DNA of 49,106 nt, taken from contig CADAJV010000004.1 of NCBI GenBank assembly GCA_902788275.1, forward strand, positions 1-49,106, given 5' to 3'. Positions within the stretch are counted from its first letter, which is position 1, and the number at the start of each line of letters is the position of its first letter. The position numbers and the translations under genes were made by a program. The DNA comes from an uncultured Bacteroidales bacterium (GTDB lineage: Bacteria > Bacteroidota > Bacteroidia > Bacteroidales > Bacteroidaceae). This document shows positions 22,921 through 42,900 of the stretch, piece after piece. Under the pieces are notes generated by a model that saw only the letters and a program-made list of their open reading frames with translations, had not been told where the DNA came from and did not search any database.

Positions 22921-22960
22921 CCCATCAGACATAACAAAGGGGCCTCGCCGCAGAAACAAA

Positions 22961-23023
22961 CTCCGAGCACGCGCAAACAAACTCCAAGCACACGCAATTT
23001 AACTCCGTGCTCACGCAAAAAAA
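22961..23023. repeat. 21-bp tandem repeats, three units
   Basis: CTCC begins at 22961, 22982 and 23003, exactly 21 bp apart (units CTCCGAGCACGCGCAAAC, CTCCAAGCACACGCAATT, CTCCGTGCTCACGCAAAA, shown truncated). A worn fourth unit follows. The unit resembles the reverse complement of the GCACGGAGTTAAA unit at 38.9 kb. Confidence 0.8.
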
Positions 23024-23042
23024 GCCCCATCTCACAGTAACG

Positions 23043-23196
23043 CTCCCGCGGGAATAATTTGAAACTCCCGCGAGAATAAACTTTAACTCCCGCGGGAATA
23101 ATGTTTAACTCTCGCGGGAGTTTTAAATTGCTCTCGCGAGTGTTTTAAATTACTCTCGCGGGAGTTTCAAATTATTCCCGCGAGTGTTTTGATTTT
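23043..23196. repeat. 22-bp tandem array with palindromic cores, seven units
   Basis: Units begin at 23043, 23065, 23087, 23109, 23131, 23153 and 23175, exactly 22 bp apart. Each has a core such as CTCCCGCGGGA or CTCTCGCGGGAG, which is self-complementary or nearly so, followed by an AT-rich half (AATAATTTGAAA, TTTTAAATT). No spacers separate the units, so this is not a CRISPR. The rest of the gap up to 23374 holds worn GAG/CACGGGC pieces and no gene. Confidence 0.9.
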
Positions 23197-23374
23197 TGCA
23201 CGGGCTTTTTTGGCGTGAGCTCGGAGTTTCATTTCTTTTCCACGGGCTCTGTTTGAATTTCCGCGCTCTTAGTTTTTTTCTCATTTTTGGTTAAAAACTT
23301 CGACAGGCTCAGTTTTTCTCCTTTGCAGCCGAATAATACGAATTTTTGCCTAATTTTCAGAAAAAGGGGATATG

Positions 23375-35780: not shown

Positions 35781-38446
35781 AGACTCTACATTATATATAT
35801 AGTGGCGCCGTCAGGAACTGGAAGTTGCTCCTGCTCTTTATAATGGTCAATTGTCAATGGTCAATTGTCAATCAGGTTTCTGCGCAGGACGCATTCTACA
35901 TCTACCGCAACGACGGCGACTTCAACGGATTCTTCTTCGACGAGGTGCTGAGGATGGGCTATTCCAGGATTGACCTCGACTCCATTGAGCACGACGTCTA
36001 TGTAGTGCAGGAGATAGAGCTGGCCGACACCACCTACCGCATACCCCTGGCCGTCATCGACAGCATCGGCTTCCAGCAGCCGGAGATTAAGATGAACCCC
36101 AGGCTCACAATTCTCAACGGCAGCGAACTGGAGACTTATCTTAAATGGACAAACAACGATAATGGCACCATGTCCTTTAATCGGCTTCCCGCCAACCTCA
36201 AGCCGAAGGTGGGCGACGTACTCGTAGGCTACGACGATGACTCCGACCAAGCCTGGAAACTCTATGGCAGCGGCTTCGGAGGCGTGGTGGAGAGCGTTGA
36301 GGACCTTGACGAATACTCTGGGCCGACAACGAGGGTATTCTGCCGCGCCATCGAAAATATGGGCGAGGTGTTCGAGCAGTTTATCACTGTGGAGAAGCTG
36401 ACCGTTGACCAGCACGGCAACATGAGCCGCCGCCTGGCCGGAGTGAAGCCCGACGGCAAGAACTACCCGGAGGCCTCAGGCTCAGCAGAAGTTAACCTCA
36501 TCGACTTCACCGCCAACCTGACGCGCGAGTGGCACCCAAGCGAAGGATCCAACATCAACCTCTCAGCGGAGGTGGGCGTCAAGTTCCGCGTACGCGTCAC
36601 CTACGACATAGGCTGGACCAAGATGTTCGTCAAGCTAACCCGCGACCTCATTATTGACGCCAAGCCCTCGCTGGGCATGGCTGTGTCGAGCAGCTTCAAC
36701 GTTGATGTCAGCGACCTCATACCCCTGCCCCGAATAATCTTCCCCGCCACATGCCCCATCTTCGAGACCGAGCCCTTGCCCACGTGGTTCATCCGCGGCG
36801 AGGGCAAGGTGGAGGCCAACCTCAACTTCCCCAAAGTGCACCTGGGCCTGGGCGAAGACATCATCATCGACACGCGACGCCTCTTCCCCATCGACTACGA
36901 CCTCTACTGGGTGCCCGAGGAGAACAAGGGCAATGACCAGGTGATAGACATCGGCTCCACCAATGTGGTCTTCTCCGGCTACCTGCAGACGGGCATCAAG
37001 TTCTCGGCCAACGTTTATACCGCCAGCTGGTACAAGAAACTGCTCACCGGCGACATCAGCCTCGACCTCTACGCTGGCCCCAAAGTCAAAGCAAGTCTGG
37101 AGTTCAGCACCGACTGGCTCAACGAGCCCAGCTCCACGTACTATTGGCTCCGCGACCAGGTGCTCACCGCCAGCTGGCTCTCGCTGGACCTTGAGGCCTC
37201 GGCCAGCGCCGCCGTGCTATGGAAAGACCCCGATCGGAAGACCTTCTTCTCAAAGAACTGGTCATTCTTCTGCGACACCCTGCGTCAGGTGCCAAGGATA
37301 GAGTCGATTGACGTGGAGGTGAAGAACGGCAAGGCCAAGTTTACCGTCAACACCAAGCGCGACCTTGTACCCGCCCACGACGTGCTGTACGTCGATCTCT
37401 ACCGAAACGACAAGAAGGTAAAGACCGTGGAGGTAGGCCCCTACAAACGCGACGGCGGCCCCTTCACCACCACCATCTCCACCGACGGCATGCTGGGCGG
37501 CAAATACACAGCCGTGGTCTGCGTCTCGTGGGGAAGCTTCGGTACATATCCCACCAGTGTACGGACAGGATTCCAAATCCCATACACCATAGAAGTCAAC
37601 AAAAACAATCTCCACTTCGCCAACTCCGGCGCAGGGCTTGTGCAGAGAGTGCGCTTTACTACCAACGCCCCCAAGGAGGAAATAGGAGTTTGGAACGGAA
37701 GCAATTTCCCCGTCGATTTTGAGATAAAGACCATCAGCGAGAGCGCCGGCGAATACGAGGCAGTGTTCACCAGCAAGACCCACTACGACCTTTTCCCCCT
37801 TAAGGCCGAGCTGGTGCTGTACGCAGGAGACTATTATCCCGCGCGTGATACAATAACCTGCACGCAGGACACCACCCTCGGGAATATGGTGACAACCACA
37901 GCTCATGCCTGGTTTGAGGACAGCAAAGGTGAACGGCACAGCAGCGGATCGACCTTAGGGGTTAATTTTCCTAATGAACCCACCGTACCCCTGACACTGA
38001 CAAGAGACGCAAGCGGCAACGTCACAGTCACCGGCGTCCTGACAGAGGAGAAGGATGGCTACACACGCACCACAAACATCAGCATTATCCTTGTGCCTTA
38101 CCATAGCGAGGAAAGCGGTGCCCGCTATACCCCTAAGAGCGGAACCCTCTATACTCGCACACGCCGTAGTGATTCTGAATATGTTACCTTCACAGCCAAC
38201 CTTGTTCCCGAATACTACGGGGAAGAGGGCTCAAGTATTTCGAATAATGGCTACTCCAGTTGGGGCTTAGACGATCTTTCATGTTTCACTGAGCGCGACA
38301 AGCTGTTATGGCATTGGTATTTCGATCTGGAGGGTGCGAACTACCATTACCATCACATATATGGCTATAGTGATAAAAGCGAGAACTACACCCAGCAGCC
38401 GGGACAGAAATCCAGTTGCATCATAAAAATTACATATCCCAAATAA
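35777..38446 (+). CDS. Large secreted protein with repeat in signal peptide
   Basis: Unrecognised exported protein of 889 residues. The N-terminal 37 residues (WKLLLLFIMVNCQWSIVN, ending VSAQ) form an unusual signal peptide whose second half is coded by a 14-bp exact duplication. The mature part begins DAFYIYRNDGDFNGFFFDEVLRM, a motif common in Bacteroidales adhesin-like proteins, then shows beta-rich modules (NLSAEVGVKFRVRVTYDIGWTK near 270, KNGKAKFTVNTKRDLVPAHDVLYVDLYR near 515, and a sandwich-like segment near 610-700). There is no catalytic motif I recognise. It is translationally coupled to the smaller protein before it and ends at a strong terminator. A surface role is inference. Confidence 0.78.
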   Translation: MKTLHYIYSGAVRNWKLLLLFIMVNCQWSIVNQVSAQDAFYIYRNDGDFNGFFFDEVLRMGYSRIDLDSIEHDVYVVQEIELADTTYRIPLAVIDSIGFQQPEIKMNPRLTILNGSELETYLKWTNNDNGTMSFNRLPANLKPKVGDVLVGYDDDSDQAWKLYGSGFGGVVESVEDLDEYSGPTTRVFCRAIENMGEVFEQFITVEKLTVDQHGNMSRRLAGVKPDGKNYPEASGSAEVNLIDFTANLTREWHPSEGSNINLSAEVGVKFRVRVTYDIGWTKMFVKLTRDLIIDAKPSLGMAVSSSFNVDVSDLIPLPRIIFPATCPIFETEPLPTWFIRGEGKVEANLNFPKVHLGLGEDIIIDTRRLFPIDYDLYWVPEENKGNDQVIDIGSTNVVFSGYLQTGIKFSANVYTASWYKKLLTGDISLDLYAGPKVKASLEFSTDWLNEPSSTYYWLRDQVLTASWLSLDLEASASAAVLWKDPDRKTFFSKNWSFFCDTLRQVPRIESIDVEVKNGKAKFTVNTKRDLVPAHDVLYVDLYRNDKKVKTVEVGPYKRDGGPFTTTISTDGMLGGKYTAVVCVSWGSFGTYPTSVRTGFQIPYTIEVNKNNLHFANSGAGLVQRVRFTTNAPKEEIGVWNGSNFPVDFEIKTISESAGEYEAVFTSKTHYDLFPLKAELVLYAGDYYPARDTITCTQDTTLGNMVTTTAHAWFEDSKGERHSSGSTLGVNFPNEPTVPLTLTRDASGNVTVTGVLTEEKDGYTRTTNISIILVPYHSEESGARYTPKSGTLYTRTRRSDSEYVTFTANLVPEYYGEEGSSISNNGYSSWGLDDLSCFTERDKLLWHWYFDLEGANYHYHHIYGYSDKSENYTQQPGQKSSCIIKITYPK
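35845..35873 (+). repeat. Heptanucleotide repeat in the signal-peptide codons
   Basis: GGTCAATTGTCAAT occurs twice in tandem (35845-35858 and 35859-35872); TCAAT begins at 35847, 35854, 35861 and 35868, a strict 7-bp period. It lies in the signal peptide, where a gain or loss of one unit would shift the frame. Confidence 0.85.
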
Positions 38447-38489: not shown

Positions 38490-38530
38490 AGCGCGGAGGG
38501 CCCAACCAAGGCCCTCCGCGCTAATTTTTT
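38490..38530 (+). terminator. Strong rho-independent terminator
   Basis: AGCGCGGAGGGCC (38490-38502) and GGCCCTCCGCGCT (38510-38522) form a perfect 13-bp stem, with a run of T's at 38525-38530. It ends the secreted-protein pair. Confidence 0.95.
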
Positions 38531-38638
38531 AGTTACCATTTCGCAGGCAAAGATAGTAATATTTTTTATATAAATGAATAGCACCAGAAAAACAAAGCGA
38601 AAATCCGATTTCTTAAAGAGAGAAGCCAAAATCTAAGT

Positions 38639-39118
38639 GCGAGGAAGTCAAATCTAAGCGCGAGGAAGTCAAATCTAAGCGCGAGGAGCCGTGTTTTTAC
38701 TGCGAGGAGATGAAATTTTATCGCGATGAGCTGAGAAAATTCAACTTAAATTTTAAATAAATCAAGTTGAATTATAAATAAATCAAGTTGAATTATAAAA
38801 AAATCAAGTTAAATTATTTTTAATTCAACTTAAATTATTACATTTGCTCAGAGATAAATCTCGGCTCCTCGGATTTAGAATGGGGCTGCACGGAGTTAAA
38901 TTTCATTTGTACGGAGTTAAATTTCATTTGCACGAAGTTAAATTTCATTTGCACGAAGTTAAATTTCGTTTGCACGGAGTTAAATTTCGTTTGCACGAAG
39001 TTAAATTTCATTTACACGAAGTTAAATTTCATTTGCACGGAGTTAAATTTCATTTGCACGGAGTTACAATTCTCTTGCATGGAATTAGGGTGCCTGGGCA
39101 CGCTATTAAAACTGCCGA
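38639..39118. repeat. Phased 21-bp tandem array upstream of the HU-like gene
   Basis: Units of exactly 21 bp. GCGAGG/GCGATG starts at 38639, 38660, 38681, 38702, 38723. After a shift of 3 bases, TCAA starts at 38741, 38762, 38783, 38804 and 38825 (TCAAGTTGAATTATAAA). The same phase then carries on at 38846 and 38867 (worn) and at 38888, 38909, 38930 and every 21 bp to 39098 as GCACGGAGTTAAATTTC-type units. About 23 units in 480 bases; the sequence changes but the spacing does not. The frame 38844-39161 is open because 21 is a multiple of three; it would give a 7-residue repeat (LHGVKFH) and I do not regard it as a gene. The stretch 38531-38638 holds nothing recognisable. Confidence 0.93.
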
Positions 39119-39149
39119 CCACAGCCTTAGCTCTGGCGAGGTGACAGAT

Positions 39150-39163
39150 TATCAAATTTGATA
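39150..39163. promoter_or_regulatory. 14-bp palindrome upstream of the HU-like gene
   Basis: TATCAAATTTGATA is a perfect palindrome that lies 28 bases before the ATG at 39192 and could be an operator. A second TATCAAA follows at 39172. Confidence 0.4.
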
Positions 39164-39191: not shown

Positions 39192-39782
39192 ATGGAATTG
39201 AAGTGTTACTTAGTTCACAACAAGCTGCTGAACAGCAAGGGCAGCGAGAAGATTTTTCCGAAGGTGGCCAACTACAAGCCGCTGGACGGCGACGATTTTA
39301 TTGACAAGGTGGCTGAGAGCCAGCATCTTGGGCGCGCGGTTATCTGCGGCGTGCTGGCGGCTGTGGCCGAGGAGCTGGTGACCTGGATTGGCAACGGCCA
39401 TGCGGTGACCATTGAGAACCTGGGCACTTTCAGCGTGGGCATGAAGGGCGACGTGGAGCCCGACAACCGCGGGGTGCTGCAGCTGAAGGACGCCAAGGTG
39501 TCGAAGGTGAATTTCATTCCCAGCACGCGGCTGAAGAATAAGCTCTCGAAGGTGAAGTTCACGCTTATCAACCACAATGTCAACGTGGTAACTCGGCCCG
39601 CCGACGATGAGCTGATGGATGCCGCCCGCCGCGTCACCAATGAGTACGGCTATTTTGTCCGCGCGGACTTTGCCGAAGCCGCAGGAATCAGCTATAACTA
39701 CGCCGGCAAGGCTCTCAAGCGCCTGGCCGGCGAGGGCAGGCTGACTGACGACGGCAGCGGGCACTACAGGGTGGCAGAATGA
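39192..39782 (+). CDS. HU-family DNA-binding protein with C-terminal extension
   Basis: A 196-residue protein. Residues about 1-125 match the HU-related proteins of Bacteroidetes (histone-like family): helical DDFIDKVAESQHLGRAVICGVLAAVAEEL, then GNGHAVTIENLGTFSVGMKG with the HU-type GTF signature and a variable arm. Residues about 130-196 are an extension (ELMDAARRVTNEYGYFVRADFAEAAGISYNYAGKALKRLAGEGRLTDDGSGHY) that looks like a winged helix, with a helix-turn-helix pattern, suggesting a second DNA contact. The typical role is to bend and compact DNA. It is preceded by a 480-base array of 21-bp phased repeats. The ATG is the only sensible start. Confidence 0.9.
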   Translation: MELKCYLVHNKLLNSKGSEKIFPKVANYKPLDGDDFIDKVAESQHLGRAVICGVLAAVAEELVTWIGNGHAVTIENLGTFSVGMKGDVEPDNRGVLQLKDAKVSKVNFIPSTRLKNKLSKVKFTLINHNVNVVTRPADDELMDAARRVTNEYGYFVRADFAEAAGISYNYAGKALKRLAGEGRLTDDGSGHYRVAE

Positions 39783-39920: not shown

Positions 39921-42900
39921 ATGAGCAAAAATAAATTCACCGAATATAAGGGGCTCAACCTGCCGGATATCAACCGCGAGGTGCTGGCCCAGTGGATGAA
40001 GGAGGACCTCTTTGGCGCCAGCCTCAGGCAGAGCGAGGGCAAGCCCACGTTCGTGTTCTTTGAGGGCCCTCCCTCGGCCAACGGCCACCCGGGTATCCAC
40101 CATGTGCTGGCCCGCACCATCAAGGACACGGTGTGCCGCTATAAGAGCATGAAGGGCTACCACGTGCCGCGCAAGGCGGGATGGGACACCCACGGACTGC
40201 CCGTGGAGCTGAGCGTGGAGAAAACCCTTGGCATCAGCAAGGAGGACATCGGCAAGAAGATTTCGGTTGACGACTACAACAACCAGTGCCGCGCCGACGT
40301 GATGAAATATACCGCCGAGTGGCGCAAGCTCAGCGAGGAGATGGGCTACTGGGTGGATTTGGACCATCCTTACGTTACCTACGAGAACTCTTACATCGAG
40401 TCGCTGTGGTGGCTCTTGCAACAGCTCTACAAGAAAGGGCTGCTCTATAAGGGCTACACCATCCAGCCCTACAGCCCCGCCGCCGGCACCGGCCTCTCCA
40501 GCCATGAGCTGAACCAGCCGGGCTGCTACCGCGACGTGAAGGACACCACGGTGACGGCGCAGTTCAGGGTGAAGGAAGCTCTCTCCATCTCTCAGCCCCT
40601 CTCTGACTCCCCCCTCAAGGGGGAGGACTCTGGCGCCAGGACTCCCCTCCTTTTGGGAGGGGTTGGGGGTAGGCTCCCAATCTATATCCTGGCGTGGACT
40701 ACCACCCCGTGGACCCTGCCCAGCAACACGGCGCTCTGCGTGGGCCCGAAGATTGACTACGTGGCCGTCAGGGGCAAGAACCCCTACACGGGCGAGGAGG
40801 CCATCTACATTGTGGCCAAGGCCCGCAAGGATGTCTATTTCCCCGAGCCTAAGGAGGAGGGCGACTACAAGCCCGAGATTGTGGGCGAATGGAAGGGCAG
40901 CGAGCTGGTGGGACTGCACTATGAGCAGCTCTTCCCGTGGGTGAAGCCCTGCGCCCTGGAGGACGGCCGCGCCGTTGACAAGAGCGCCGATGCCTTCCGC
41001 GTAATCCCCGGCGACTACGTGACCACCGAGGACGGTACGGGCATCGTACACATAGCGCCCACCTTTGGTGCCGACGATGCCAAGGTGGCCAAGGATGCCG
41101 GCATACCCTCGCTGTTTATTATCGACAAGGCCGGCGACACACGCCCGATGGTGGACTTCACCGGCAAATACTTTGTCAAGGAGGACATGGATGCCGGCTT
41201 CATGGAGACCTGCGTCAACGACAGCTACTGGCACCACGCCGGCGACTTTGTGAAGAATGCCTACGACCCCAAGTATGCCGACCTCGACGAAAAGGCCCTG
41301 CAGAAGACCGAGGACCTCAACATAGTGCTGTGCATGGAGATGAAGCAGGAGGGCACAGCCTTCCGCATTGAGAAGCACGTACACAACTACCCCCACTGCT
41401 GGCGCACCGACAAGCCTGTGCTCTACTATCCGCTCGACAGCTGGTTTATCCGCTCCACGGCCATGAAGGAGCGCATGATGGAACTCAACAAGACCATCCT
41501 GTGGAAACCCGACTCGACGGGCACCGGCCGCTTCGGCAAATGGCTGGAGAACCTCAACGACTGGAACCTCAGCCGCTCGCGCTACTGGGGCACGCCGCTG
41601 CCCATCTGGCGCAACCGCGACACCCGCGAGGAGATTTGCATCGGCAGCATCCAGGAGCTCTACAACGAGATTGAGAAGAGCGTCAAGGCCGGCCTCATGC
41701 AGAGCAACCCCCTGAAGGACAAGGGCTTCGTGCCCGGCGACTATAGCCAGGAGAACTATCACAAGATTGACCTGCACCGCCCCTACGTGGACCAGATTGT
41801 ACTCTGCAGCCCCACCGGCCAGCCGATGAAGAGGGAGCTCGACCTTATCGACGTATGGTTTGACAGCGGCGCCATGCCCTACGCACAGATTCACTACCCC
41901 TTTGAGAATAAGGATGCCCTCGACCGGGGACTCTGCTACCCCGCCGACTTCATTGCCGAGGGCGTTGACCAGACGCGCGGATGGTTCTTCACCCTCCACG
42001 CCATAGCCACCATGGTGTTTGACAGCGTGGCCTACAAGGCCGTCATCTCCAACGGACTGGTGCTCGACAAGAACGGCAACAAGATGTCGAAGCGCCTGGG
42101 CAATGCCGTGGACCCCTTTGAGGCTATCAGCAAGTATGGCAGCGACCCGCTCAGATGGTATATGATTACCAACTCGCAGCCCTGGGACAACCTCCGCTTC
42201 GACGAGAAGGGCGTGCAGGAGACGGCCCGCGGCCTCTTCAGCAAGCTATACCAGACCTACAGCTTCTTCGCCATGTATGCCAACGTGGACGGATTTGACA
42301 GTTCGAAAGTCCGGGAGTTCGAAAATCCAAATGTTGTGGCCAGCGGCCAGAACATCGACCGCTGGATAGTCTCAGCCCTCAACACCCTGGTCAAGAAGGT
42401 GACCGCCTGCTACGAGGACTACGACCTGACCACCGCCGGCCGCCTGATAGAGGCCTTTGTCATTGACGACCTCTCCAACTGGTATGTGCGCCTCAACCGC
42501 AAGCGCTTCTGGCGCAGCGGCCTTGACGACGACAAGCTCAGCGCCTACCGCTCGCTCTACACCTGCCTTGAAACCGTGGCACGCCTGATGGCTCCGCTGG
42601 CGCCCTTCTACTCCGACAAACTCTACCGCGACCTCTGCGGCCAGGAGCAGAGCGTACACCTGCAGGCCTACCCCGAGGCCGACGAGAGCCTGATAGACGA
42701 GGCCCTGGAGGCACAGATGCTCAAGGCGCAGAAGATTGTGTCGATGGGCCTGTCGCTCCGCAAGAAGGAGAAAATCATCGTGCGCCAGCCCCTGCAGTGC
42801 ATCATGATACCCGTAGGCAGCGAGGCCGAGCAGCAGAGCATCGACGAGCTGAGCCCCATCATCACCAGCGAGCTCAACGTCAAGGAGATACGCTACGTGG

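Follow-up and report, generated by a model that had tools for sequence, protein, structure and literature searches.

The array of 21-bp repeats upstream of an HU-like gene in the window, by which we mean the whole stretch of 49,106 nucleotides analyzed here, is probably a row of sites for dimers of the protein encoded by that gene, which would control its own gene through the array and mark dispersed chromosomal sites. We refer to this protein, an HU domain (approximately residues 1 to 124) fused to a C-terminal winged helix (approximately residues 138 to 196), as HU-W. An earlier note, made from the letters of this DNA alone, had proposed an architectural site or binding array, perhaps for the HU-like protein. 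Our comparison with related genomes supports that proposal, and it is from the pairing of arrays with HU-W genes and from their co-occurrence that we infer binding.

The gene upstream of the array ends at 38446 and is followed by a terminator-like hairpin on the + strand (38490..38525; a 13-bp perfect inverted repeat, then a T-rich stretch) that forms the left edge of the intergenic region, then by the array, and then by the HU-W gene (39192..39782, + strand, 196 aa). The phased 21-bp array (about 23 units) described in the earlier note is real. It occupies 38629-39097 with a period of 21 and three unit families (A, P, and B), and TRF made period-21 calls at 38629-38687, 38695-38734, 38741-38838, and 38887-39071. 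A lag of 21 was the strongest self-match in the 600 bases upstream of the HU-like gene, with a score of 233 across -598 to -104 compared to a top score of 18 among 20 block shuffles. Sub-array A (38629..38733) consists of five 21-bp units with the consensus AAATCTAAGCGCGAGGAAGTC, which decays rightward. Sub-array P (38741..38845) consists of five 21-bp units of the TCAAGTTGAATTATAAATAAA type and is near-palindromic (AAATCAA-G-TTGAATT, arm pairs 6/7 as counted by eye), and sub-array B (38888..39097) consists of ten 21-bp units with the consensus GCACGGAGTTAAATTTCATTT, the final two of which have diverged. Between P and B, two poorly matching units keep the 21-bp register (38846..38887), with CGGCTCCTCGGATTTAGA resembling, by eye, the inverse of sub-array A. 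The array overall is non-palindromic (p 0.47, column permutation). The exact spacing previously claimed for 18 units held in that the 21-base register could be traced across 18 unit starts from 38741 to 39098 despite the changing unit, although the letters match poorly in the final units and in the two that start at 38846 and 38867. Similarly, five units beginning at 38629 do precede a break in the register, but the 3-base size given for this break varies with the choice of unit start. The sole TANNTTTG on this strand between the two genes, which we take to be a Bacteroidetes -7-like motif, is TACATTTG at 38839..38846 (+ strand); by eye, no convincing -33 partner for it was found.

A coding reading of the array was also considered, given an open frame at 38844-39161 (105 aa) with heptapeptide repeats. 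This was rejected because the frame starts with TTG and because the 22-bp arrays found elsewhere would break such a frame. A second, smaller array in the window (22954-23260), with periods of 21 and 22 and units of the GTGCTCGGAGTTTGTTTGC and CTCCCGCGGGAATAATTT types, has no adjoining HU gene; it lies between a terminator-like hairpin on its 5' side and an unrelated gene on its 3' side and has CGGAGTT in common with sub-array B.

The suggestion that the next gene encodes a DNA-bending protein with an extra DNA-binding-like domain was borne out. The window protein passes the Pfam family HU-HIG (PF18291) with 68.9 bits against a cut-off of 26.2, and its similarity to HU_rel (TIGR01201) is partial, with 50 bits against a cut-off of 68.6, which it fails; among six HU-W proteins tested, only that of L130 passed this model (83.7). 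In the AlphaFold model (pLDDT 86.5, pTM 0.57), helices at 138-152, 157-164, and 168-180 follow the HU part. The HU-W profile also matches ribosomal protein S25, itself a winged helix, at 120-194. The top Foldseek match is BVU_2165 (PDB 4fmr; E 1.4e-5, TM 0.46-0.48 on the query), a protein of low identity to the window protein (13-14%) whose title gives no function. Pfam found HU-type domains only, plus DUF5817_CT below the cut-off. The one-line family descriptions of PF18291 and TIGR01201 mention neither an array nor a cognate site, and Burroughs and colleagues reportedly treated HU/IHF clades in a 2017 paper. The HU-W profile matched 244 of 301 genomes of the family at an E value of 1e-8, some of them perhaps through the HU part alone, and a search of phage records (n = 50,697) with the HU-W protein of L152 gave one weak, partial match.

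To score periodicity, we searched the intergenic region upstream of each gene for its best-scoring lag in the range 8 to 60, compared this score with those of 20 block shuffles, and called a region periodic when its score was at least 20 and above every shuffle; genes were called by a simple codon model. The own-genus set comprised 44 of 118 PF18291 matches, selected largely because they had a long open frame or scored strongly, and yielded 26 HU-W genes by eye (22 of the 26 periodic) and 24 by profile. The set from other genera (n = 58) comprised the 18 best-scoring loci and 40 loci spread over genomes, picked before the upstream DNA was inspected. Excluded before the count were 35 of 646 other genes with a divergent region common to an HU-W gene and, next, regions shorter than 80 bp (319 of the 611 remaining other genes and 1 of 82 HU-W genes).

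Across many genera of the Bacteroidaceae, 69 of 81 HU-W upstream regions were periodic (own genus, 21/24; other genera, 48/57), all with a lag of 21 to 23 or its double, compared to 10 of 292 other genes with periodicity of this class (own genus, 10/205; other genera, 0/87; Fisher 3e-51 overall). The search of relatives for 21/22-bp arrays near HU-type genes that the earlier note called for thus found the predicted association, which persisted among regions of at least 200 bp (HU-W, 66/77; other genes, 9/183). The best lags of the 69 periodic regions were 21 (47 regions), 22 (12), 42 (5), 23 (3), and 44 (2) and no other, so the arrays of other periods that the note had named as evidence against its proposal were absent from these regions. 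Even among the 12 of 81 HU-W regions below the threshold, the best lag still fell in this class for 11. Several of the 10 positives among the other genes were pairs with a common region, and one region was common with an HU gene lacking the winged helix. Of the HU genes scored without a winged helix, 4 of 16 had an array of this class, and one of these four (L148) is an HU-W gene whose end was lost at a contig end.

The limited range of lags bears on whether these arrays are functionless minisatellites produced by slippage, which we regard as extremely improbable. The repeats do run head to tail, and units are homogenized within each array, as slippage would produce. This reading is already contradicted, however, by the restriction of lags to 21 to 23 or doubles in 69 arrays, given that the period does not vary freely between loci. 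When other genes had periodic regions at any lag (24 of 292; own genus, 20/205; other genera, 4/87), the lags were mixed, e.g., 8, 10, and 14. The palindromic units, the near-fixed unit number, and the tie to one gene family described below and above also argue against slippage.

The gene after the HU-W gene is presumably ileS-like, as judged from its sequence and from relatives found by search. Its closest named relatives come from rumen metagenome assemblies labeled Bacteroidaceae or Prevotellaceae; no relative of the window protein itself was found in named genomes. None of 80 named ileS loci carried an HU-W match within the flanks available, some of which were short, and HU-W therefore seems to be no fixed neighbor of ileS. 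In these same 80 loci, 21 of 302 intergenic regions carry arrays of the same class, among them an array with a 22-bp period (score 62) that precedes ileS in one of the named relatives (L255, 4313-4991). The readers of such arrays, if any, would sit elsewhere in those genomes. The ileS-like gene of the window also contains an in-frame insertion rich in CCCCTC/GAGGGG (40585-40675; approximately residues 215-262), of which 66 of 79 aligned relatives lack at least 15 residues and in which L293 and L254 carry other letters.

The letters of the repeat unit, in contrast to its length, are unrelated between most HU-W genes, in agreement with the earlier observation that spacing is kept better than sequence. 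We compared 76 arrays scoring at least 16, whose proteins fall into 52 clusters at 60% identity. Clear 7-mer sharing was seen in 15 of 24 array pairs with proteins at least 70% identical, in 5 of 11 at 60-70%, and in 1 of 64 at 50-60%; at lower identity, it was seen in 12 of 211 (40-50%), 35 of 865 (30-40%), and 17 of 1162 (below 30%) pairs. The identities of the HU part, the linker, and the winged helix each tracked operator sharing equally. The HU-W protein of G256 (L200), which is 60% identical to that of G205, differs from it in operator but not in operator geometry. In other genera, four units are typical (31 of 53 arrays, as length over period), and the unit is often a palindrome of approximately 13-17 bp plus a short spacer, e.g., GTTCATAAGTTATGAAC or ACACGGGCGTGT. 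Among the 70 of 76 arrays with at least three units, the column permutation test found palindromic units at p<0.05 in 26 of 48 arrays from other genera (combined p 1e-29) and in 6 of 22 from the own genus, in which an asymmetric longest sub-array is common.

The position of the arrays relative to the candidate promoter element suggests that HU-W controls its own expression. TANNTTTG occurred inside the array or at most 45 bp away on the gene strand in 55 of 76 cases and on the opposite strand in 9. An alternative use of this position is that the array acts as RNA, with tandem hairpins in the HU-W leader tuning translation or stability. At some loci of other genera the palindromes lie 3' of TANNTTTG and would be transcribed, which fits such a role, whereas own-genus arrays often lie 5' of it (judged partly by eye). 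RNA hairpins would not need a 21-base spacing, and dispersed copies of the arrays occur between ordinary genes in all orientations. We therefore consider an RNA function highly unlikely and favor DNA sites for HU-W.

These dispersed copies were found in three genera, where the units of HU-W arrays turn up again at 3 to 15 other positions in the genome concerned. All of the sites were located in draft genomes with unordered contigs. One HU-W array of G205 has a unit that is repeated, in closely spaced pairs, at 16 places, one of them its own HU-W gene, with a pair spacing of 21 (20 for one pair). The search for this motif covered 17 genomes, namely G000, the genome of the window, and 16 of the genus of G205. 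The motif was present in G205, G179, and G290 and absent from the other 14, and the three with the motif are exactly those of the 17 that have an HU-W protein at least 70% identical. G179 has three array places, none on the contig of its 77% identical HU-W gene, which reads with one internal stop. The motif of G287 was found at 11 places in that genome, including its own HU-W gene, and in none of 19 congeners (20 genomes searched); the comparison with HU-W co-occurrence covered the G205 and G307 motifs. G307 and G081, whose HU-W proteins are 80% identical and have the same operator, each contain 4 places, including their own HU-W genes. The strict pattern found none in 18 congeners (20 genomes searched), and zero counts in these motif searches are lower bounds given that this pattern (g13) missed G161, where an HU-W protein of 83% identity has the same operator, with diverged or weaker units, at its own gene. 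Reversed-pattern controls for the G205, G287, and G307/G081 motifs gave 0 every time. In G205 (L336-L350), many of the dispersed GTTGC arrays have CCCCTAGGGG- and CCCTTAAGGG-like palindromes on their flanks, which by eye also seem to be about 21 bp apart.

In G000 (2.48 Mb draft, 93 contigs), a unit like the first of the window array (A-like) occurs at at least 41 places, as counted by eye with 100 of 109 matches listed, and a B-like unit adjoins the A-like unit in 19 of 20 stretches examined. The dispersed elements and the window array have 36 8-mer positions in common, compared to at most 14 for 25 other HU-W upstream regions and 13 in 200 shuffles; the best single 21-mer identity failed to set the window array apart from other HU-W upstream regions. 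On C11, C13, C15, C33, C36, C41, C58, and C69, elements were seen no more than about 100 bases from the end of the contig; such elements probably break the assembly and are hence undercounted. Contigs C2, C3, C5, C38, C41, and others also carry heptamer arrays, (GGAGTTA)n, of which three units make 21 bases and whose heptamer is the core of the B unit. Arrays with 9-base units (TGTTACGTT, TGTAACAAA) stand beside some dispersed 21-bp elements (L056, L058; L034, L038), and an HU gene that lacks the winged helix lies close to those of L056 and L058. By simple gene calling, the dispersed elements are mostly intergenic, and they sit between ordinary genes in every orientation with no clear preference for promoters. 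A rough count of neighboring genes across genera gave 3 in common (an aminotransferase, a glnS-like gene, and a murF-like gene, named by eye) against approximately 1.5 expected, which is not significant.

Dispersal of this kind raises the question of whether the elements are non-autonomous mobile repeats of the MITE or REPIN type, of which the array at the HU-W gene would be one copy and HU-W a host factor or co-opted neighbor rather than a reader. That G000 and G205 each carry near-alike copies at numerous places would fit such an origin, as would the many G000 copies at contig ends. There is also a described precedent in Porphyromonas gingivalis. The BrickBuilt element, a 23-nt tandem repeat with 19 intergenic copies, has been called a MITE, with a leader, a tail, short terminal inverted repeats, some target duplications, and a repeat number per copy that ranges from 1 to 22.8, according to the part of the account considered here (PMC4596501). 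However, chance insertion fails to account for arrays of mostly unrelated letters before 69 of 81 HU-W genes. Mobility also does not readily explain the near-fixed number of units. Of the 16 dispersed sites in G287, G307, and G081, 14 have four units and 2 have three; of the 15 in G205, 12 have three units, 2 have four, and 1 has two. In addition, one site lies at the same pair of genes in G205 and in G290, with the arms GTTGC..GCAAC kept and the inner bases changed. We consider a purely mobile origin unlikely and prefer to see the dispersed elements as further sites for HU-W.

BrickBuilt itself may be the same kind of element as the HU-W arrays, a proposal we make from its published description. 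Like them, it has intergenic tandem units of about two helical turns, and one copy, BrickBuilt_14, adjoins a gene for a DNA-binding protein with PF00216 (PMC4596501, in the part considered). It differs in being described as a MITE and in that this part of the account draws no link to an HU protein. Compared to a MITE of the BrickBuilt type, the HU-W arrays have several to many copies per genome, are mostly intergenic, and have a unit of 21 or 22 with other letters. Within the portion of the literature covered, our search found no published link between such phased arrays and HU proteins.

On whether the arrays bend DNA, as the earlier note expected, curvature predictions gave a mixed answer. 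Computed with wedge parameters, predicted curvature was high in sub-array P (97th percentile of the window; shuffle p 0.057) and in sub-array B (99th percentile; 0/300 shuffles) but low in sub-array A (3rd percentile), and it exceeded shuffles at p<0.05 in 46% of the 76 arrays. Predicted curvature adds up in P and B because 21 bp corresponds to two turns at 10.5. The idea that A/T-rich halves all face one side does not extend to the arrays of 22 and 23 bases, which are common and have no strict 10.5-base face; a fixed footprint or site size, or a wrapped path, fits equally and may matter more.

The model that we infer for the dimer geometry, autoregulation, and architectural role of HU-W is as follows. 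HU dimerizes, and HU-W is thus probably a dimer through its HU part; each dimer would read one palindromic site of approximately 13-17 bp per 21-23 bp. Neighboring dimers, about two helical turns apart, would stack into a compact, bent assembly. At the array near the core promoter of its own gene, such an assembly would most likely control HU-W expression. The near-fixed set of sites at further places in the genome suggests an architectural or global role and would make HU-W a sequence-specific protein of the nucleoid type with a private address list. A constant spacing of 21-22 with varying letters points to a little-known chromosome-binding protein with a private site set.

We give roughly even weight to a broader reading, in which the Bacteroidaceae, and perhaps the Bacteroidales as a whole, encode HU-winged-helix proteins as a family, commonly with several members in one genome, and each member has private, fast-evolving, phased palindromic arrays spread over the chromosome. 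This would be a modular system of nucleoid addressing that conserves spacing and unit number, leaves the letters free to change, and has orphan repeats such as BrickBuilt as its sites. If true, our findings would give a testable role to the large, uncharacterized HU-W family and also to dispersed repeats so far taken as mobile debris. HU-W genes would offer many natural pairs of protein and array, in which specificity has seemingly diverged while the geometry was kept, and how HU-fold proteins acquire sequence specificity would become directly testable. It would also suggest that, in addition to a general HU, dominant gut bacteria organize their nucleoid by means of private site sets.

Two groups of known systems invite comparison. 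Iteron-binding Rep proteins and ParR/parC resemble HU-W in that phased repeats, with a period of about two turns or of one, accompany the gene for their binding protein, and this likeness to iteron origins and to parC of plasmid R1 could mean that the HU-W array is a segregation or origin site traveling with its gene. Such a role has little probability in our view, given that Pfam detected neither a Rep domain nor a partition ATPase domain in the window protein, the neighboring gene is ileS-like, the L152 query had 0 matches among 72,556 plasmids, and the sites are several and dispersed. HU-W as a proposed reader of chromosomal sites has a parallel in MatP/matS and Noc, where, as proposed here, one protein is matched to dispersed chromosomal palindromes. 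The HU-W sites differ from those of MatP and Noc in forming phased multi-unit arrays and in having letters that turn over between species, and a single genome can contain several HU-W paralogues.
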